A stretch of 64,000 nucleotides of DNA, from NCBI RefSeq assembly GCF_038003525.1, contig NZ_JBBOPI010000001.1, positions 3,093,001 to 3,157,000 on the forward strand. The letters are read 5' to 3'. Origin of the DNA: Solibacillus sp. FSL H8-0538 (lineage in GTDB: Bacteria; Bacillota; Bacilli; Bacillales_A; Planococcaceae). Positions 26,426-36,761 of the stretch are shown one piece after another. Under the pieces are notes generated by a model, which did no database searches, had not been told where the DNA came from, and saw only the letters and a program-made list of their open reading frames with translations. Position 1 is the first letter of the stretch; each line of letters opens with the position of its first letter. A program made the position numbers and the translations under genes.

Positions 26426-27901
26426 TTATTGTAAGGCGATACAAATATTTTTTGCTTCTGTGAAGAATTCTAAGCTGTGATGCCCACCCTCACGACCTAC
26501 ACCGCTTTTTTTATAGCCGCCAAAAGGTGCTCTTAAATCACGTACAAACCAGCAGTTCACCCAAATTGTACCTGCTCGTACATCATGAGAAATGTTATGT
26601 GCTCGTTGCAAATTTTGTGTCCATATAATCGCATTTAATCCATAGTCTGTACTGTTAGCAATTTTTAATGCTTCCTCTTCTGTATCAAATGGAATAATTG
26701 TTACAATTGGACCGAAAATTTCTTCTTGGCAAATGCGCGCTTGATAGTTTTCTTGTAAGTATATAGTTGGGAGCAAATAGTAACCTGTTTTTAAATGCTC
26801 CGGTAAGTTTGGTCTTTTCGCTCCATAAATTAGTTTCGAGTTTTCAAATTCAGCAATATCTATATAACTTGTAACTTTATTATAATGCGCTTCGCTAACG
26901 ACTGGTCCCATATTCGTCGATGGATCTTGCGGATCCCCTACAACAAGATTCATTGCCGCTTCTTTAAAGCGTGTTAAAAACTCGTCTAGTATCGTGCGCT
27001 GTACTAAAATACGGGAGCCAGCTAAACATACTTGACCTGAATTCATAAATGCCGCTTGAATCGATACAGGAATTGCTTTGTCTAGGTTTGCATCCTCAAA
27101 AATGATATTTGCAGCTTTACCACCTAATTCAAACGATACTTTCTTTAATGAATCTGCACCATTTTTCATAATCGCTTTCCCTGTTGACGTTTCTCCTGTA
27201 AAGGAAATTAAATCAACTTCAGGATGTGTTGTCATAAATTCACCAGCTGATTGTGTCCCAAAACCGTGTACTACATTTACTACGCCATCTGGAATGCCAG
27301 CTTCTTTTGCTATTTCTCCCAATAGCGAAACGGTAAGTGGCGTCACTTCAGCTGGCTTAATAACTGCTGTATTACCAGTTGCTAAACATGGGCCAAGTTT
27401 CCACGTTGTCAGCATAAATGGTAAGTTCCACGGTGTGATTAGCGCTGCAACACCCACAGGTTCATAACGCGTATAGTTTAAAAATTGATCATCCATTGGG
27501 TACACTTCTCCACCTTGTTTTTCCATAAAATCAGCGAAGAACTTTAAATTTTCTGCAGCGCGTGGAATTTCTCGTTCCACAGCCGTTTGGTACGGCTTCC
27601 CTACATCCATTGCCTCAAGTCGAGCCAATTCTTCCTTACGCTCAATAATGATTTCTGCCATGCGACGAATTTTTTCACAACGCTCTGATACAGACATTGT
27701 CCGCCATGGTCCTTCTTCAAACGCTTTTCTTGCAGCATTGCATGCGCGGTCAACATCTTGGAAACTTGCTTCGTGCACTTTGGCAATGACTTCTTGTGTC
27801 GCTGGATTTTTCACTTCAAACAATCTATTAGATGATGACTCAACATACTCTCCGTTAATGAATAACTTTACTTCTTTTAGCATCGTTTCAGTTTTTGTCA
27901 T
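26426..27901 (-). CDS. 2-hydroxymuconic semialdehyde dehydrogenase
   Basis: This 491-residue aldehyde dehydrogenase has 'TPWNLPFMLTTWKLGPCLATGN', 'FELGGKAANIIFED' (general-base Glu) and 'NSGQVCLAGSRI' (catalytic Cys). By operon context it oxidises 2-hydroxymuconic semialdehyde, the ring-fission product of catechol, to 2-hydroxymuconate with NAD. It is the last gene of the phenol operon, and the upstream TGA overlaps its ATG (TGATG), so the two are coupled; AGGAGGT lies nine bases upstream. The closely related HpaE type cannot be fully excluded by sequence alone, but no homoprotocatechuate genes are present. Confidence 0.88.
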   Translation of the reverse strand: MTKTETMLKEVKLFINGEYVESSSNRLFEVKNPATQEVIAKVHEASFQDVDRACNAARKAFEEGPWRTMSVSERCEKIRRMAEIIIERKEELARLEAMDVGKPYQTAVEREIPRAAENLKFFADFMEKQGGEVYPMDDQFLNYTRYEPVGVAALITPWNLPFMLTTWKLGPCLATGNTAVIKPAEVTPLTVSLLGEIAKEAGIPDGVVNVVHGFGTQSAGEFMTTHPEVDLISFTGETSTGKAIMKNGADSLKKVSFELGGKAANIIFEDANLDKAIPVSIQAAFMNSGQVCLAGSRILVQRTILDEFLTRFKEAAMNLVVGDPQDPSTNMGPVVSEAHYNKVTSYIDIAEFENSKLIYGAKRPNLPEHLKTGYYLLPTIYLQENYQARICQEEIFGPIVTIIPFDTEEEALKIANSTDYGLNAIIWTQNLQRAHNISHDVRAGTIWVNCWFVRDLRAPFGGYKKSGVGREGGHHSLEFFTEAKNICIALQ

Positions 27902-28110
27902 CACTTCGTTACCTCCTGTTCTTGTTTACGGCGGTGAACAGACTTCCCAGCGATTCCCCAATTTGTATCAGGAATTTCATTAATCCCAATTCGAATTGAT
28001 TCAAGTGGTGCTCCGAGTACAGTTGATACGGTTTTCGTAATTTCTTCGATTAATTTCTCTTTGCGTTCTGGCGTCCTACCTTCAAGCATCGTAATTTGAA
28101 TAAGTGGCAT
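27901..28110 (-). CDS. 2-hydroxymuconate tautomerase (4-oxalocrotonate tautomerase)
   Basis: The 69-residue product begins 'MPLIQITMLEGRTPERKEKL', leaving the catalytic Pro-1 after Met removal, and carries 'IRIGINEIPDTNWGIAGKS' with the expected Arg. It interconverts 2-hydroxymuconate and its keto form 2-oxalocrotonate. The tail is a few residues longer than in XylH/DmpI. GGGAGGA precedes the ATG. It lies between the decarboxylase and dehydrogenase genes with a 19-bp gap and a 3-bp overlap. Confidence 0.93.
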   Translation of the reverse strand: MPLIQITMLEGRTPERKEKLIEEITKTVSTVLGAPLESIRIGINEIPDTNWGIAGKSVHRRKQEQEVTK

Positions 28111-28129: not shown

Positions 28130-28921
28130 CTATCCTTCTACTGTTACTCGTAATTCATCCATACCGTCAAAGCTCACGGTAAATTCATCGCCTGCTTGCA
28201 TCACAGCTGAGCCCGTCAACGCACCACTCAGCACGACATCTCCAGCTCGTACTTTTTGGCCACGTGCTAGCATTTTATTGGCCATCCAAGCAATCGCACG
28301 TGCAGGGTGACCCATAATCGAACCGGCTGTGCTCGTTCCAAAAATCTCGTCATTTTGTTTAAAAATACAGCCCATCTTCACTAAATCTACGTCACGAATC
28401 GAATACTTCTTATCACTCATAATGTATTTTGACGAAGATGAATTATCTGCAATCACATCAGGTAGTGTGAAATTAAAGTTTAAATAACGGCTATCAATAA
28501 TTTCCATCGCCGGTGTAACGTAATCAGTTGCTTGTAAAACCTCGGCTACGGTTACAACTGGTCCTTCTAAGTCTTTTGCAAATACAAACGCAATTTCTGG
28601 CTCAATTTTTGGATGAATTAGCGGTTTCAGTGAAATTGGCTCAGCCGCTAGTAACTCCATATTTTGTAGCAGTACCCCATAAGACGGTTCATGAACACCC
28701 ATCATTTGCTGCTTCGCTTTACTTGTTAAACCAAGTTTCATGCCAATACGCACAGTTTTTTCCTGATCACACTTCAACTTAATTAGTTGATCTTGCACGT
28801 CATACGCAACCTCTACTGTTAGTTCTGGGTATTCATCTACAAATTTCTTCACTTCATATACATCACGTTCAGCTTGAAACAATGTATACGCAATTTGGTT
28901 TACTGTATCTGTTTTTAACAT
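28130..28921 (-). CDS. 4-oxalocrotonate decarboxylase
   Basis: This 263-residue member of the hydratase/decarboxylase family carries 'EIIDSRYLNFNFTLPDVIAD', the same pattern as XylI/DmpH ('DSRYENFKF'), which separates it from the paralogous hydratase encoded at 30848. It decarboxylates 2-oxo-3-hexenedioate to 2-oxopent-4-enoate, and in other systems acts in a complex with the hydratase. ATG at 28921 follows AAAGGAGGT at seven bases; the long frame upstream overlaps the aldolase gene and is rejected. The aldolase stop is 14 bp away. Confidence 0.9.
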   Translation of the reverse strand: MLKTDTVNQIAYTLFQAERDVYEVKKFVDEYPELTVEVAYDVQDQLIKLKCDQEKTVRIGMKLGLTSKAKQQMMGVHEPSYGVLLQNMELLAAEPISLKPLIHPKIEPEIAFVFAKDLEGPVVTVAEVLQATDYVTPAMEIIDSRYLNFNFTLPDVIADNSSSSKYIMSDKKYSIRDVDLVKMGCIFKQNDEIFGTSTAGSIMGHPARAIAWMANKMLARGQKVRAGDVVLSGALTGSAVMQAGDEFTVSFDGMDELRVTVEG

Positions 28922-28934
28922 GGTGCGACCTCCT

Positions 28935-29945
28935 TTATACAAACTGTTTGCCATTTGCTAAAGCACGAGCAATTTCAATAATTAAATCTTCCTGTCCACC
29001 AACTGCCTTCATTTGTCCTAGTTGTAATAAAATTTCTCGCTCGTCGACCCCATATTTTTGGGACGCTTCTTGTGTAAATAATAAGAAGCTCGAGTAAACA
29101 CCCGCATAGCCCATCAGTAAACTCGAACCATTAATTTCTTGTGGGCGTGGCATAAATGGTGCAACAATTTCATTGGCTACATCCATTGTGGCGAACAAAT
29201 CCACGCCCGTTCCATAACCAAGACGTTCAAACACCGCAACCATCACTTCTGTTTGTGTATTACCACTACCTGCACCTAAGCAGCGTAAACTTCCATCGAT
29301 AAATGTAGCGCCTGCTTCAACAGCAGCCATAGTATTTGCCATCGCAAGTGACAAATTATTATGTGCGTGGAAACCAATTTCACACGAAATCACTGAACGA
29401 AGCGCAGTAATTTTTTCTGTTACTTCGTGGGGAAGCATTGCACCAGCCGAATCAGTTACGTATACAATTTCTGCGCCATAGCTTTCAAATAACTTCGCTT
29501 GTTGTACTAGTACATTAGTTGGTGCCATATGGGCCATCATTAAAAACCCAACCGTCTTTAAACCGAGCTCACGGCTTAACTGTATATGTTGTTTTGCAAC
29601 ATCTGCTTCTGTAACATGTGTGGCGACACGTGCCATTTTTGCGCCAGCCGTCACTGCGTTTTTCAAATCTTCTCGAATACCAATTCCCGGTAAAATAAGT
29701 ACGGAAATTTGAGCATCACCGCATTCTTCATTCGCCGCTTCGATTAGTTTTAATTCGTCTACTTTTGAAAAACCATATTGTAATGAAGAGCCACCTAAAC
29801 CGTCTCCATGTGATACTTCAAAATACTTAACGTTGGCTTTTCCTATTCCTCGCGCTACATCACGTACCTGCTGCTCCGTAAAAGCATGTCGCATTGAGTG
29901 ACTACCATCACGTAATGTAACGTCTAATATCGTCAATTCCTTCAT
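28935..29945 (-). CDS. 4-hydroxy-2-oxovalerate aldolase
   Basis: This 336-residue DmpG/MhpE-type TIM-barrel enzyme has the N-terminal 'LDVTLRDGSHSMRHAFT' (metal Asp and catalytic His/Arg), 'SHGDGLGGSS', and 'GFHAHNNLSLAMANT' with the metal His pair. It splits 4-hydroxy-2-oxovalerate into pyruvate and acetaldehyde and forms a channelling complex with the acetaldehyde dehydrogenase encoded 12 bp upstream. AAGGAGAG precedes the ATG. Confidence 0.95.
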   Translation of the reverse strand: MKELTILDVTLRDGSHSMRHAFTEQQVRDVARGIGKANVKYFEVSHGDGLGGSSLQYGFSKVDELKLIEAANEECGDAQISVLILPGIGIREDLKNAVTAGAKMARVATHVTEADVAKQHIQLSRELGLKTVGFLMMAHMAPTNVLVQQAKLFESYGAEIVYVTDSAGAMLPHEVTEKITALRSVISCEIGFHAHNNLSLAMANTMAAVEAGATFIDGSLRCLGAGSGNTQTEVMVAVFERLGYGTGVDLFATMDVANEIVAPFMPRPQEINGSSLLMGYAGVYSSFLLFTQEASQKYGVDEREILLQLGQMKAVGGQEDLIIEIARALANGKQFV

Positions 29946-29957
29946 GATACCTCTCCT

Positions 29958-30833
29958 TTAAACGACAACATTTTGTTGTTTAGCTATTTCATTTCCTACC
30001 TGTACTGCTGCAGCCGTCATAATGTCTAAATTGCCTGAATAAGACGGGAAGAAATCACCTGCACCTTCTACTTCTAAAAAGACGGATACTTTATTGCCCT
30101 CAAATACAGGTGGACTTGTCATACGGTATCCTGGTACATATTGCTGAACGTCTTTTACTATTTGTTCAATGGAATGTAAAATTTCTAATTCCTGATTTTG
30201 CTTTCTTACTAATACATGGACTGTATCACGCATCATAATTGGGGGTTCCGCCGGATTTAAAATAATAATTGCTTTCCCGCGATCTGCTCCACCTACTTGC
30301 GCTATTGCTTGAGCGGTTGTTCTTGTAAATTCATCAATATTGGCACGTGTACCCTGACCTGCACTTTTACTTGCAACAGTCGCCACGATTTCAGCATATT
30401 CAACATCTGCTATACGATTAATGGCATAAACAATTGGAATAGTTGCTTGCCCACCACACGTCACCATGTTGACATTATCTGAAGTAATATACTGTTCTAA
30501 ATTCACACATGGCACAACAAATGGACCAATTGCAGCTGGCGTTAAATCAACCATTTTCTTGCCTAATGCGATAACCTTCTCACTATGTTCTTGATGTGCT
30601 TTTGCTGTTGTTGCATCGAACACAATATCAAATAGTTCTGGTCGCGCGATTAATCCATCAATGCCTGTTGTAATTACTTCATAGCCACGACTTTTAGCGC
30701 GCGCGATCCCTTCTGAATTTTCATCAATTCCGACCATGACACTCATTTTCAAATAATCACTACGTTCGATTTTATACATCAAATCGGTTCCAATATTACC
30801 AGACCCTAAAATGGCTACTTTTAGTTTTACCAT
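29958..30833 (-). CDS. acetaldehyde dehydrogenase (acylating)
   Basis: The 291-residue DmpF/MhpF-type enzyme opens '[17 protein letters not shown]' (NAD site) and has '[17 protein letters not shown]', whose Cys (about residue 126) forms the thioester. It converts acetaldehyde, NAD and CoA to acetyl-CoA, taking its substrate from the aldolase through a tunnel in known homologues. AGGAGGT precedes the ATG. It is the penultimate chemical step of the pathway that links phenol to central metabolism. Confidence 0.95.
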
Positions 30834-30847
30834 TATTTTTGCACCTC

Positions 30848-31621
30848 CTAATATTTAAACGTTGCGGATACGTCACCTAAATGAGCAAATGAGGCTGAAA
30901 ATGTATCGCCGTCTTCAATAGGGACTGCTGCTGTTAAAGCACCCGATAATACAAATTCGCCTGCTTCTAGCGCGATATTATAATGGCCTAATTTATTCGC
31001 TAACCAGGCAACGGCATTGACTGGATTCCCCATCACTGCCGCTGCTGCTGCGCTATCAAATAACTCCCCGTTACGATAAACATTCATACCGATATGTGAT
31101 AAATCTACCGAATCAAGTTTCGTTGGTGTACCTCCAATAATGGCCATTGCAGAAGAACCATTATCTGCAACTGTATCTTCAAACTTTATGTTCCAATCAG
31201 CAATTCTACTGTCAATCACTTCTAATGCGGGCACAATATAATCCGTTGCATCTATTACATCTTGTGGTGAAATAGTCGTTCCAAATAGTCTCTTTTTCAG
31301 CACAAAGGCAATTTCAAATTCTAGTTTTGGTTGAATTAGGTGCTCCAGTGAAATCGTCGCTCCATCTACTTCAACCATATTCGATAAAATATGACCATAA
31401 TCTGGTTCATTTACTTTAAACATTTGTTGCATCACTTTACTTGTTAAACCAATTTTCTTTCCTACAATTGTATGACCATCTAGCTGTTTTTTCTCAATTT
31501 GCAATAATTGAATAGCATACGCATCCTCTACTGTAATAGAGGGGTTTGTTACAGTTAATGGTACAATAGGGTGTTTCATTTGTTCTGCCTGCTGTAATTG
31601 TTGTGCATATTGTTGTCTCAT
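30848..31621 (-). CDS. 2-oxopent-4-enoate hydratase
   Basis: The 257-residue protein has '[20 protein letters not shown]', the XylJ/DmpE pattern, and '[20 protein letters not shown]', which marks it as the hydratase rather than the decarboxylase paralogue. It adds water to 2-oxopent-4-enoate to give 4-hydroxy-2-oxovalerate. I chose ATG 31621 (AGGAGG nine bases upstream); the longer frame would overlap the flavin reductase gene. The two paralogues sit on either side of the aldolase and aldehyde dehydrogenase genes. Confidence 0.9.
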
Positions 31622-31637
31622 CACATGATTCCTCCTG

Positions 31638-32114
31638 CTATTGAATTGCAACCTTTTCCTTTAATTCGCTATATTGTCCATTGAAGAAAAGAAGCGGATT
31701 ACCATCTTGTAAACAAACATCTAGTACATGACCTATAAACAACGTATGGTCTCCTTCAGCATGGGAGGTCGCTACTTCACAACTGATTTGAGCAATCGCT
31801 CCTGGAATCGCCGGTGCACCATTTATATCATCAAAATCTACTTTTTGCGGATCTTTGATTTGACCAGCAAAAAGTTGAGAGTAATATTGTTGATCTTCTG
31901 CTAAAATATTTACTGTGAATTTATTACTTTGTTTAATACGTTCAAGCATTGATGCTTTTTCGCCTACCGATATGACGACTAATTTGGGATTAAGTGAAAC
32001 AGACATGAACGCGTTTGCCGTCATGCCATAAATTTCGTTATTTAGTTTTGTGGTAATGACTGTAACACCAGTTGCAAACTTACCCATTGCTGTTCTAAAA
32101 AGGCGATCATCCAT
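31638..32114 (-). CDS. flavin reductase component of phenol 2-monooxygenase
   Basis: This 158-residue flavin reductase-like protein has 'GKFATGVTVITTKLNNEIYG' then 'MTANAFMSVSLNPKLVVISV' and 'SHAEGDHTLFIGHV', as in HpaC/PheA2 proteins. It should supply reduced FAD to the HpaB-type oxygenase encoded two genes upstream. In many relatives the two components are adjacent; here the ring-cleavage dioxygenase gene lies between them. GGGAGGAG precedes the ATG. A hairpin at 32125-32160 separates it from the dioxygenase gene. Confidence 0.88.
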   Translation of the reverse strand: MDDRLFRTAMGKFATGVTVITTKLNNEIYGMTANAFMSVSLNPKLVVISVGEKASMLERIKQSNKFTVNILAEDQQYYSQLFAGQIKDPQKVDFDDINGAPAIPGAIAQISCEVATSHAEGDHTLFIGHVLDVCLQDGNPLLFFNGQYSELKEKVAIQ

Positions 32115-32191: not shown

Positions 32192-33160
32192 TTACTTGAT
32201 TACCGGTACTTTCGCTGGCTTATCTGGTGTACCGTATAGGAAGTACTCGTTCGGTAATGGTGAGCCGTACCAAATAATAGCTTCATTTAGCTCGTGCTCA
32301 CGCCATACTAATGGTTTCCAATCTGGGTCAAAAATTAAGTAACCTGAGTCACCGAATAATTCTACTCGATTTCCGCCTGGTTCGATTACATACATAAAGT
32401 ACGCTTGGCTCACACCATGTTTACCAGGGCCTGCTTCGATTTTAATCCCGTTTTCAGCAAAAATATCAGCAAGATCCATTAAGTGTTGTGGATAACCATA
32501 CCAGAAGGCAATATGGTGGAAACGTCCACTATTGCCTGTTTGGTCGCCCATTAATGCCACTTCATGTACAAGTGGGCTCACACTCATCCAAGCACCAAGC
32601 TCCTGGTTTTCCCCTACGATAATTTGTTCTCTTAATTTAAAGCCAAGCTGTTCAGACATAAATTCGCGATTTTTCGCTACATCGCTACACATCATATTAA
32701 TGTGGTCAAGACGTCTTGCTGGAATGCCTGTTAATGGACGCTTTTGCGGACGGCTTTTTAGTAATGTTTTTTGATCAGCAGATGCTTGGAAATAGTCCAC
32801 TTCCCATAAGATTTCTTGATTATGACCATCTGGAGTTACAAATTGGTAAGCTCGGCCATGCCCTAAATCTCCATCGATCCAGCCTTTTCCATAACCACTT
32901 TGTTGAATAGATGCTACACGACGCTCTAGCGCTTCTGGTGAACTTGCACGCCATGCAACATGCCCCATTCCTGCTTCCTTTGCTTCCGTTAACTTTAATG
33001 TGTGATGATAAAAATCTTCATAACCACGTAAATATACAGATTGACCTTCACGTGCTGTAATTTGTAAGCCCATATAATCTGTGAAAAACTTTAGAGATTC
33101 CTCTGGCTTTGGTGTATAAAGCTCCACATGTGCTAATTGTGCAATATCAAAATTTGACAT
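32192..33160 (-). CDS. catechol 2,3-dioxygenase
   Basis: This 322-residue two-domain extradiol dioxygenase has the Fe(II) ligands visible in the C-terminal domain: His in '[10 protein letters not shown]' (about 152), His in '[10 protein letters not shown]' (about 218) and Glu in '[10 protein letters not shown]' (about 269). It opens catechol between C2 and C3 to 2-hydroxymuconic semialdehyde. The length and order after an HpaB-type gene resemble PheB of Geobacillus phenol degraders. Start ATG 33160 is eight bases after AAAGGGGG; the ATG two codons earlier is too close to it. Confidence 0.93.
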
Positions 33161-33186
33161 AATCATTTCCCCCTTTGTTAAGTAAA

Positions 33187-34725
33187 TTATTTATTAGTAA
33201 AGTAATTAATATCATCAGGATTAATCCATGTTGAATTTGTCCAACCATTTAGGTCGTAGTCAGACATACATTGATCAGCAAATGCGATTAATTCATCTGT
33301 TTTACCACTGCCCTGTGCACCGAATAATGTTTGTAGTCGAATATCGTCCTGGTTCCCCGCATAGTTACGTTCATATAGTTCGCCACGACCACCAAATTCA
33401 GTACCAATTGCATCCCATAGCAGTTTGACTGTTTTAATTTTTTCAAGCGCATCAATACCATTCGAACCGCGATATAATTTATCGAGCGTTGGACGGAAAT
33501 CCTCATTTAGGAAGTCACGTGCGCTTGATGGTTGAACGATAAGATTACCGGCTACTAATTGTTGAATCATCCCCGTAATTTTTGGCCAACCTTCTTGTAA
33601 AAAGATTCGATATGCTAAGCCTCCTTGTAAGTTCGGTACAACAAAGCCATTGTCACGCTGTTCTGGATTTAGTGCCATCGCATCACTTAATGACCAGAAC
33701 ATGTGACGCCATGCAATAATTTCACCGACACTCGCTTGGACACCTCGGAATTGATCCGTACCTGCTGTTTTTAGCGCTTTCAATAACACACCAATGATAA
33801 AGTCAAGTTTGACAGCAAAACGTGTCACTCCTTGGAATGTAAAGCGGTTAATAAAGCCACTTTCTACGAAGAATGATGTTGTTTTTTGCATGTCTTCATA
33901 AATTAAGACATTTTCCCAAGGGATTAACGCTTGGTCGAATACTAATACCGCATCATTTTCATCGAAACGGCTGCTTAGTGGATAATCAAAAGGGCTACCC
34001 ATTACAGCAGCATTCATTTCATATGAGGCACGGCTAATTAATTTCACGCCTGGTGCATCCATTGGCGCGATAAACACTACCGCAAACTCTTTTTCTTTAA
34101 TCGGTAGTCCATAGGTACCAACAAAGTTATAGTTTGTAATGGCTGAACCAGTGGCAACCATTTTTGAACCGCTTACAATTAATCCTTGATCCGTTTCACG
34201 TTCAACGCGAATAAATACATCGCCTACTTCATGTACTTCTTTATTACGATCAACTGGTGGATTTACAATAGCGTGGTTAAAGAACCAGTTGCGCTCTTGT
34301 GCTTCCTTATACCATCTTTTTGCATTCTCTTGGTACGGCGAGTAATACTCTGGATTACTGCCAAGTGTCGCTAAAAATGACGCTTTATAATCTGGTGTAC
34401 GTCCCATTTGTCCATAAGTAAGTCGTGACCATGCAGCAATTGCATCGCGTCCTTGAATCAAGTCATCTGCACTGCGCGCGGCACGGAAATATTTATGAGT
34501 AAAGCCGCCATTCCCAGTGTCAGTTTCACAAGTTAAAACATCTTTGTATTGTGGATCATGCATAGCGTCATAAAGACGTGCAATGGAACGAGCTGAATTT
34601 CGAAAAGCTGGATGATTTGCTACATCTTTAACACGTTCACCATGTAACCAAATTTCACGTCCATCCTGTAAACTTTCTAAATACTCTTTGCCGGTTAATG
34701 GCTTCGTCGCTTGTTGAGTAACCAT
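33187..34725 (-). CDS. phenol 2-monooxygenase oxygenase component (HpaB/PheA1 type)
   Basis: This 512-residue FADH2-dependent monooxygenase of the HpaB family has the acyl-CoA dehydrogenase-like core: '[20 protein letters not shown]', '[20 protein letters not shown]' and '[10 protein letters not shown]'. HpaB proteins ortho-hydroxylate phenols with O2 and FADH2 from a separate reductase. The substrate is inferred as phenol because the next gene is catechol 2,3-dioxygenase and the path downstream is the catechol one; 4-hydroxyphenylacetate would need HpaD and HpaE-G, which are absent. It is the first gene of the operon, with GGAGGGA before the ATG. Confidence 0.88.
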
Positions 34726-34729
34726 CTCT

Positions 34730-34837
34730 ATTCCCTCCTACATTTGTTACTTGTTTGACATGTCCTCCTAAATTTATATTATTCTGAATAATTAAGTAAT
34801 TTATAAAATGTATAGTAATTTCTCTTTTCACTTTCAT
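34730..34837 (-). promoter_or_regulatory. control region of the phenol operon
   Basis: On the minus strand ATGAAA (34837-34832) and TATACA (34814-34809) are 17 bp apart, a weak promoter as expected for activator control. A perfect 15-bp palindrome ATTATTC-T-GAATAAT (34778-34792) lies just downstream, near the start point. A second AGGAGG (34764-34769) precedes a four-codon frame MSNK-stop in the leader. All assignments are by pattern only. Confidence 0.45.
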
Positions 34838-34863: not shown

Positions 34864-34893
34864 AAAAAAACCAGCGTCTCCACTGGTTTTTTT
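34864..34893 (-). terminator. terminator after the regulator gene
   Basis: 'AAACCAGTG' pairs with 'CGCTGGTTT', with T7 on the minus strand, between the regulator stop and the operon promoter. Confidence 0.85.
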
Positions 34894-34903
34894 AATAGTT
34901 ATT

Positions 34904-36679
34904 TTATTGTAATGAGCGCACGGCATAATACACTTTAATCGCAAGCTGACATCTAAATCGCCCTTCGCCGTTTCGTAAATCTTCCTGCAGTAACGATTCA
35001 ATTTTTTCCATCCGATAGCGGAAGCCTGGAATAGATAAATTCAGTTCTTTGGCTGCCTTATTAACATTACCTCCGTTGTTCAGAAATACTTCTAAAGTTT
35101 GAATAAACGCCGTACTATTTTGCTGATCATGTTTTAACAAATGCTCAAGCACCTGCTCATAAAACACAATGAGCTCTTTTGGATTGGTCGTTTTCAAAAA
35201 CAGTATTATATGCTGAAAATCTTCATAAATTGCTCCCTGGGTCTCACTAGGTGTAATGTTTTGTAAAAATCTACTCACAAGTTTTGCGTCTTGATAACTA
35301 TGTCCGATGTCGCTAAGCTCATTCGAATTATGACCAATCCCAATATGAAACGTTACTTGTTTAAAACGATTTTTCAACTTAGTAACTAATTGCTTCATAA
35401 AGCTTTTTACATGCTTACTATTTTCTGTTTGTTCTTCTAAAATCATTAATATTTCATCATTTTTTATAAAACACTCAATTGACGGATATTCTATTGTTAA
35501 ATAATTCAAAATGGTTTCTGTTTCTTCGAATCCAACTGCTATTACAATCAACCTACTACTCTTATTCGGATCGAAATTAAATATATTTCTTGCCTTTTTT
35601 ATCATTCTTTCAATTGCTACTTGTCCATTCAACATCTCGTCTAAAAAATCCGACTTGCGTTGCCACTGAGACTGAGCGATTTGTGCTTGTATATACAAGT
35701 ACACAGAAAATACAGAGATAGCACTCTCAATCATCATTTTCTGCTCTCGAGTAAGTGCCTCATCATGAATAACCGTCAAATTTCCTAATTGCTTATTCAT
35801 CGTCATAATCGGGAATTTATGCAAACGCTTTCTTATATGAGAGTGATTTTTTATAAAATATTGCTCATCTTCTACTGTTTTAAAAGATGTTGCAATTGGC
35901 TTGTGCATATTCACTTTTTCAATTATAAGACTGCTATGCAACCCTTCACTTAACATATTTAATAATTGATTAAGTGTATATCCTTCTAACATAGCATTTG
36001 TTAACTGTTTTTGAATCGTCTCCGAATGGACAATTGAGTGATTTAACTCTTTTAATTGTTTATAGGCTGCATCCAATTCATGCTTTAGTGAATCTTCTTT
36101 AAAATATTTTAAAATATCAAGTTGTTCCGGTGCTGCATGTTCTTTTGTGCGAACAATAAAGCTACAATAATCGTCTCGTTTACCTCTACACTTGTCTTCG
36201 AAAACAACTAATTCTTTTGGATAAATTTTTGCTAAAAATCCTGCTACATAGCCAACCAACGTCCAACATATACTTTCTTCACTAAAGCCAAAATGTCGAA
36301 CATGTTCAGCAGCTTCATAAGAATGATACCATCTTCCTTCCATTTCAAACTTATGATCATCTACTTCTAGTAACTCAATTTCTACACTGACTACACCTTC
36401 TAACGTGTGCATTGCTGCCCCAGCCATTATGAGTTCTCTTATATCATTCCAATTATATGATTGTTTAACAGACTCACCAGCACTATACCCACACGCCCAA
36501 CCGTATCTTAGCAAAAAACCCTTTGCTCGTTCCATATCTAGCGTTTTGACAATATCACGCCGAAAAATTCCAAGAGCTTCAGCCGATTTTAACACCATTC
36601 GGTTGCCATTGAAGCGAATAATTCCAGTACGAGGATTCACATCAAATGAATTTTCAAACACTAGTCGATTTGCTTTCAT
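34904..36679 (-). CDS. phenol-responsive regulator: XylR_N-V4R sensor fused to a PucR-type DNA-binding end
   Basis: The 591-residue protein is built in three parts. Residues 1-180 match the sensor of XylR/DmpR/MopR activators, with a V4R domain whose C138, E161, C164 and C172 reproduce the C-x22-E-x2-C-x7-C zinc site. W117 and H91 fall where the phenol-contacting Trp and His of MopR lie. The middle (about 330-480) looks like the degenerate GGDEF-like domain of CdaR/PucR proteins. The end ('LEVFLNNGGNVNKAAKELNLS') is a PucR-type helix-turn-helix. No AAA+ sigma-54 domain is present. It probably activates the adjacent operon on binding phenol. ATG 36679 follows GGGGTG. Confidence 0.85.
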   Translation of the reverse strand: MKANRLVFENSFDVNPRTGIIRFNGNRMVLKSAEALGIFRRDIVKTLDMERAKGFLLRYGWACGYSAGESVKQSYNWNDIRELIMAGAAMHTLEGVVSVEIELLEVDDHKFEMEGRWYHSYEAAEHVRHFGFSEESICWTLVGYVAGFLAKIYPKELVVFEDKCRGKRDDYCSFIVRTKEHAAPEQLDILKYFKEDSLKHELDAAYKQLKELNHSIVHSETIQKQLTNAMLEGYTLNQLLNMLSEGLHSSLIIEKVNMHKPIATSFKTVEDEQYFIKNHSHIRKRLHKFPIMTMNKQLGNLTVIHDEALTREQKMMIESAISVFSVYLYIQAQIAQSQWQRKSDFLDEMLNGQVAIERMIKKARNIFNFDPNKSSRLIVIAVGFEETETILNYLTIEYPSIECFIKNDEILMILEEQTENSKHVKSFMKQLVTKLKNRFKQVTFHIGIGHNSNELSDIGHSYQDAKLVSRFLQNITPSETQGAIYEDFQHIILFLKTTNPKELIVFYEQVLEHLLKHDQQNSTAFIQTLEVFLNNGGNVNKAAKELNLSIPGFRYRMEKIESLLQEDLRNGEGRFRCQLAIKVYYAVRSLQ

Positions 36680-36761
36680 TTTATACACCCCAATTAATAT
36701 ATTTTGTGCAATACGAAATACATTAAATAAAATAATAAGTAAAATAATGCCATTTAATATT

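Follow-up and report, generated by a model that had tools for sequence, protein, structure and literature searches.

The 591-residue regulator studied here is most probably, with a likelihood that we put at roughly three in four, a phenol-gated, one-component, sigma-A-dependent activator of the hydroxylase (meta-cleavage) operon. It is encoded in the window, i.e. the whole stretch of 64,000 nucleotides of Solibacillus sp. FSL H8-0538 that was analysed. In the mechanism proposed, phenol or a simple alkylphenol would enter a zinc-stapled V4R/XylR_N pocket, in which H91 and W117 would hold the ligand hydroxyl. The sensor dimer and its linker helix would then relay the signal to the GAF/GGDEF-like/PucR half, which would bind the operator at 34786-34816, adjoining the -35 region, and sigma-A RNA polymerase would be recruited to the hydroxylase operon.

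Domain architecture and structure model

The open reading frame extends over 34904-36688 on the minus strand, and translation from the ATG at 36679 yields 591 amino acids (Table 1). The Pfam search showed XylR_N at residues 10-107 (94.1 bits, cut-off 23), V4R at residues 119-177 (35.7 bits, cut-off 31), GGDEF_2 at residues 363-468 (35.2 bits, cut-off 24.5) and HTH_30 at residues 526-583 (58.8 bits, cut-off 27). A weak Fis-type HTH_8 match lies inside the last of these (22.3 bits, cut-off 22). Neither AAA+/Sigma54_activat, up to an E value of 1e-3, nor the PucR N-terminal domain had a Pfam match in the protein. The PucR-type helix-turn-helix end and the missing AAA+ domain, both noticed in the original prediction, are thus borne out.

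The AlphaFold2 model of the regulator, built from 57 sequences, has a mean pLDDT of 88.6 and a pTM of 0.58, values that suggest good individual domains with an uncertain relative placement. The modelled sensor superposes on PoxR (5frw) with a Z score of 27.7 and 2.0 Å over 194 residues, and on MopR (7vqf) with a Z score of 25.6 and an rmsd of 2.1 Å over 187 residues. Superposition on MopR was the check that the original prediction had set against itself, and the agreement obtained concerns the fold only. Residues from about 210 to 340 match GAF domains, including that of CodY, with Z of about 12-13; this domain adds to those originally listed. As the GAF-fold region gave no Pfam match and has just two nearly invariant residues, I291 and G299, its role is probably structural. 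Finally, residues 337-589 match the PucR-type C-terminal halves of Rv2242 and BAD_0249 (Z about 13, with an rmsd of 10-11 Å over the two domains).

Table 1 Positions in the window of the regulator gene, its domains, the control region and the downstream operon.
Feature	Position	Strand	Basis
Regulator CDS, 591 aa	34904..36679	-	ATG 36679; GTG 36688 is an alternative start
Sensor domain (XylR_N + V4R), residues 1-180; C138/E161/C164/C172, H91/W117	36140..36679	-	Pfam, alignment to MopR/DmpR/PoxR, fold match
Predicted long helix, residues 199-231, positioned as the DmpR B-linker coiled coil	35987..36085	-	Structure model
GAF-fold domain, residues about 236-350	35630..35974	-	Fold match
GGDEF-like domain (GGDEF_2), as in PucR-type regulators	35276..35593	-	Pfam
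PucR C-terminal helix-turn-helix (HTH_30), recognition segment LNLSIPGFRYR	34931..35104	-	Pfam, sequence
Probable terminator 3' of the regulator gene	34868..34889	.	Inverted repeat and T-run, read from sequence
Proposed operator ACTATACATTTTATAAATTACTTAATTATTC	34786..34816	-	Conserved in relatives; PSSM
Proposed sigma-A -10 (TATAAA), 36 bases from the operator's TATAC	34773..34778	-	Relatives' alignment
GACATGTCAAACAAG, conserved in Lysinibacillus-type relatives	34750..34764	-	Alignment
HpaB-type flavin monooxygenase, large subunit (predicted phenol hydroxylase)	33187..34725	-	Pfam HpaB_N/HpaB; TIGR02310 710.6 bits, under the 885.2 cut-off
Catechol 2,3-dioxygenase	32192..33166	-	TIGR03211 360.4 bits, cut-off 320.2
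Flavin reductase	31638..32114	-	Pfam
2-Oxopent-4-enoate hydratase-like	30848..31651	-	Pfam; under equivalog cut-off
Acetaldehyde dehydrogenase (acetylating)	29958..30833	-	TIGR03215 451.2 bits, cut-off 282.25
4-Hydroxy-2-oxovalerate aldolase	28935..29945	-	TIGR03217 488.4 bits, cut-off 286
4-Oxalocrotonate decarboxylase-like	28130..28954	-	Pfam; under equivalog cut-off
4-Oxalocrotonate tautomerase-like, 69 aa	27901..28110	-	Pfam Tautomerase E 4.2e-19
Aldehyde dehydrogenase (predicted 2-hydroxymuconic semialdehyde dehydrogenase)	26426..27904	-	Pfam Aldedh; substrate inferred from operon

Zinc ligands and ligand pocket

A phmmer search of the PDB sequences with the regulator retrieved MopR (E 7e-27), DmpR/CapR (1.3e-25) and PoxR (3.5e-20), and these matches end between regulator residues 181 and 257. 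In the alignment C138, E161, C164 and C172 correspond to what we take to be the MopR zinc ligands C155, E178, C181 and C189, and W117 and H91 to what we take to be W134 and H106. The four residues with the MopR ligand spacing, as well as the tryptophan, are as originally predicted; the histidine had been correctly named, but its placement as merely close to H106 was too loose, since the two align exactly. A Cys-Glu-Cys-Cys zinc site with a His/Trp anchor is confirmed for the MopR/DmpR family in two papers (PMC7264223, PMC10715001). In DmpR the counterparts of this His and Trp flank the phenol hydroxyl, and the sensor is followed by a leucine-striped coiled coil, the B-linker (PMC7264223).

Conservation of these residues was counted in 80 loci (L038-L117), i.e. 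the best 77 distinct loci of the 150 relatives in a scan of named genomes, together with three plasmid loci. All 80 keep the zinc ligands, while the anchoring His is kept in 76 and the Trp in 78, a conservation that is far from chance. The exceptions are L069, with Ala for His, L116, with Phe for His, and L084 and L093, with Phe for both. L084, L093 and L116, from Desulfosporosinus, Sporomusa and Acetobacterium, retain all zinc ligands despite these changes to Phe, and their proteins perhaps respond to a different, non-phenolic ligand.

The pocket side chains were compared with MopR at the level of sequence. The walls differ, with I84 in place of F99, and V159 at the position of DmpR F170 (Tyr in MopR and PoxR). 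In addition G115, a Gly conserved in 35 of 35 loci, stands for a MopR Phe that presumably lines the pocket. Since these walls are smaller or different, the ligand may exceed phenol in size, and alkylphenols are possible inducers. The PheR-type clade presents the same His and Trp in 13 of 13 members and similarly small side chains.

Relatives and gene neighbourhood

By the origin labels of the tree, the relatives among the best 77 loci are all from Bacillota; the query patterns were themselves derived from Bacillota, hence this is no census. XylR_N exceeded its cut-off in 48 of 200 genomes of the window's family, with up to five matches per genome, and in 7 of 299 genomes spread across the phylum, the window's own genome being included in both sets. 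In a tree obtained by a quick method the window protein falls among Lysinibacillus proteins, in a clade of 36 rows (SH-aLRT 99), and the PheR homologue L039 in a separate clade of 13.

The operon next to the regulator is, by predicted function, a catechol meta pathway with a complete oxalocrotonate branch. On its dioxygenase the HpaD model reached 219 bits, below the cut-off of 321.4, and the C23O model scored above its own.

Neighbourhoods were counted within 9-kb flanks of the 35 clade loci besides the window. An HpaB relative at least 60% identical was present at 31 of them and was not found in these flanks at the other four (L048, L058, L061 and L069). Ring-cleavage genes are of two types: an extradiol C23O (at least 60% identity) at 7 of the 35 loci, and an intradiol dioxygenase, detected by tblastn at E <= 1e-20 to a Priestia plasmid enzyme (Pfam Dioxygenase_C, E 3.6e-51), at 24. 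Four loci have neither type, two of which (L050 and L059) have short contig ends. As the hydroxylase is the constant partner of the regulator, its substrate, rather than a later intermediate, is likely the inducer. FAD synthetase genes were also seen in relatives' operons (L038:13224-13772 and L040:14989-15777), near genes of flavin-dependent hydroxylases or flavin reductases.

Proposed operator and promoter

An expectation-maximization search of 29 regulator-hydroxylase gaps, the window included, returned the motif TCaaTATTTTTTTgCAGTTaAAAatATTCa. Its log-likelihood was 334.5, compared to 89.8-95.8 for five resampled controls searched with equal effort; after thinning to 22 gaps it was 253.0, compared to 81.9-94.1, the sequences being mutually related. 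L050 gave no good motif in this search. In 16 of the 29 gaps the best -10-like hexamer of the searched range begins exactly 11 bases beyond the motif; when the post-operator DNA was resampled 200 times, such gaps averaged 1.31 and never exceeded 5. With a PSSM derived from nine relatives, the letters of the window being left out, on columns picked from an alignment that included it, the window site at 34786-34816 scored 20.8 and the next best of 127,940 positions 12.4.

The window and its Lysinibacillus-type relatives carry another form of the operator, ACTATAC-TTTT-TAAATTA; in L127 the form is the main one, beginning with TCTATAC. Spacing to the -10 is the same in both forms: 36 bases counted from TATAC in the window, and 36 (25 + 11) counted from TAT in the main form. 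The site is not clearly palindromic. The recognition helix of the proteins diverges together with the operator: IAG is paired with the CAGTT form in 22 of 22 cases, and IPG with the AATTA form in 13 of 15 rows (12 distinct) by pattern and by eye in L043 and L044, the patterns having been written after the sequences were seen. The AATTA form also occurs with the ISG protein of L050 and with L118, whose helix could not be read by the script. As this co-divergence is essentially one split of the tree, it lends support without being conclusive.

An exact copy of the operator core is present at a single place in the genome. A search for further targets returned 26 matches at up to three mismatches compared to 28 for the reversed control, with a pattern partly shaped on the window, so that no further target is claimed.

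Other elements were considered in the same gaps. A cre box in the window was rejected, its best match having 2 mismatches. Cre-like boxes with at most one mismatch are present in 21 of the 29 gaps compared to 4.2% of resampled sequences, by a pattern written post hoc; in the relatives (e.g. L038, L049 and L078) the box usually starts 12-20 bases past the start of the -10. At this threshold no box was found in the gaps of the window, L041, L042 and L055, and carbon catabolite control seems, from these gaps, to be lacking or to work differently in the Lysinibacillus group. A CodY box in the window, ATTATTCAGAATAAT, was likewise rejected: it departs from the consensus at 4 positions, and 43% of resampled sequences match at least as closely. 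CodY-like boxes with 2 mismatches lie at or near the operator in L041, L042, L055, L118, L120, L121, L123 and L126, that is in 8 of 35 gaps compared to 1.5% expected. These eight loci are closely related, and therefore no CodY claim is made for the window. The element GACATGTCAAACAAG contains the palindrome GACATGTC and precedes the ribosome site; it occurs in the window and in seven Lysinibacillus-type genomes (L118-L124, including L041 and L042), and it is absent from L. yapensis (L055/L125), L126 and L127 in the alignment of the relatives' gaps.

Sigma factor

XylR, DmpR and MopR act through sigma-54. The Solibacillus genome (G000) encodes sigma-54 and seven strong matches to AAA+ activators, so the sigma-54 route is not excluded simply by a missing factor. 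Three of these seven matches are on its second contig (191,584 bases), possibly a plasmid. The best -24/-12 site of the window gap departs from the consensus at 4 of 11 positions, and GG-N10-GC does not occur there. Over the 29 gaps the mismatches to the consensus range from 2 to 5, with 28 gaps at 3 or more of 11 and L063 at 2, and are distributed as in resampled DNA, while GG-N10-GC is present in 4 of 29 compared to 4.28 expected. None of 13 XylR_N loci of other Bacillota (10 new and 3 of the family) matched the AAA+ proteins of the genome, a weak result given several truncated loci and no positive control. The sigma-54-free action that had been predicted is therefore supported by three observations: the protein has no AAA+ domain, the spacing between a conserved operator and a sigma-A-type -10 is constant, and matches to the sigma-54 consensus are no better than chance.

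Alternative explanations

The alternative that deserves most attention keeps the mechanism and changes the inducer, which would be an alkylphenol, another phenolic or catechol rather than phenol itself. We consider it rather unlikely, though a serious contender. The sensor residues I84, G115 and V159 are smaller than those aligned in MopR, and the best-matching model of the hydroxylase is that of a 4-hydroxyphenylacetate 3-monooxygenase, although under its cut-off. The downstream genes are nevertheless of catechol rather than homoprotocatechuate type, as judged from the C23O and HpaD scores, and the intradiol dioxygenase of 24 of the 35 relatives also argues against a non-phenol inducer. Moreover, the PheR-type clade, which includes the pNCI001 regulator from a phe-like operon, combines the same His/Trp pair with similarly small side chains.

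That the regulator is instead a repressor, released by phenol from a site at which it blocks RNA polymerase, appears improbable. B. subtilis PucR works both ways according to PMC7652997, and the operator is very close to the -10; on the other side, the operator occupies the place of the -35, TTGACA is not obvious in the promoters (by eye, with no count), and the other PucR-type regulators studied are activators (PMC7652997). Far less probable still is an indirect route in which another AAA+ activator drives the operon from sigma-54 and the regulator merely tunes it: the genome has the factor and the candidate activators, yet the regulator lacks an AAA+ domain and the -24/-12 and GG-N10-GC matches in the gaps resemble those of resampled DNA. 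The reading of a phenol-gated activator that would use sigma-A is thus the one retained.

Implications

We lean slightly towards a wider interpretation, in which a DmpR-type phenol sensor has, across Bacillota, been freed from sigma-54 and joined to a PucR output. A single zinc-stapled sensor with its linker helix would then gate two unrelated transcription starts, ATP-driven remodelling with sigma-54 and recruitment with sigma-A. The regulator-hydroxylase cassette would precede either meta or ortho cleavage, and in some anaerobes, with Phe for His/Trp, the chassis would have moved to non-phenolic ligands. If true, a textbook sigma-54 sensor is a transplantable module that could serve in Bacillus phenol biosensors based on sigma-A and that offers an independent test of signal transmission by the DmpR B-linker. 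Given its conserved operator, promoter layout and exactly defined ligand residues, the mechanism can be put to a direct test.

Comparison with known systems

The closest precedent, and the first phenol regulator from a Gram-positive organism, is PheR, encoded in the phe operon of Geobacillus stearothermophilus; like the window protein, it goes with a phenol meta-cleavage operon in a Bacillales. Its sub-domains were reported to differ significantly from those of DmpR and XylR; a variant regulatory mode was thought likely, and the mechanism was left for further work (Omokoko et al. 2008, PMC2590616). The accessible text of that paper contains neither a naming of the output domain nor a test of the mechanism. 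A PheR homologue of P. thermoglucosidasius pNCI001 (642 aa, syntenic) carries XylR_N, V4R, GGDEF_2 and HTH_30 as the window protein does, in a phe-like operon whose gene order is that of the G. stearothermophilus phe operon. G. stearothermophilus PheR therefore probably shares this architecture. The homologue differs in being only 26% identical to the window protein and in its separate clade; pheR, moreover, lies inside its operon and is co-transcribed with it (PMC2590616), whereas the window gene precedes the operon and probably has its own terminator. The same domain order was seen in the window protein and six relatives, including the pNCI001 homologue, with V4R of L006 just under the cut-off, and the PheR-type gene adjoins aromatic hydroxylase or ring-cleavage genes in the window, pNCI001 and most clade loci.

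The architecture is thus already known. The original prediction had allowed that the mix of domains might exist in annotation, and it does, as "XylR N-terminal domain-containing", besides being in print in outline since 2008 (PheR), which makes the surprise smaller than first thought. In the literature searched, in which subscription papers are thinly covered, we found neither a tested mechanism for a XylR_N/V4R-PucR fusion nor a later answer on PheR, and no PucR fusion in the V4R papers searched by title and start of abstract. New here are the census of ligand residues, the operator, the promoter type and the evidence for pairing with the hydroxylase. A distinct protein also named PheR, from Aromatoleum aromaticum, is a predicted sigma-54 activator (PMC10715001).

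With MopR, DmpR (CapR) and PoxR the window protein shares the sensor fold, the zinc ligands, the His/Trp hydroxyl anchor and a long linker helix after the sensor; these three have an AAA+ ATPase and sigma-54 promoters, whereas it has GAF, GGDEF-like and PucR helix-turn-helix domains. PcrS, the p-cresol sensor kinase of A. aromaticum, likewise joins a V4R aromatic sensor to a non-AAA+ part, but belongs to a two-component system with a sigma-54 consensus promoter and is not a one-component PucR-type protein (PMC10715001). With the PucR-type regulators (B. subtilis PucR, PutR and AdeR; C. glutamicum GabR) the C-terminal HTH_30 is common, as is the GGDEF-like domain, which is absent in GabR. According to PMC7652997, this domain occurs in about half of PucR-type members, the members studied are activators, PucR of B. 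subtilis being both activator and repressor, and PucR's own site is non-palindromic, like the window operator, whereas the operators of AdeR, PutR and GabR are inverted repeats, which the window operator is not evidently. Unlike in these regulators, the N-terminal half of the window protein is an aromatic sensor; ordinary in its parts, the regulator is unusual in their combination.
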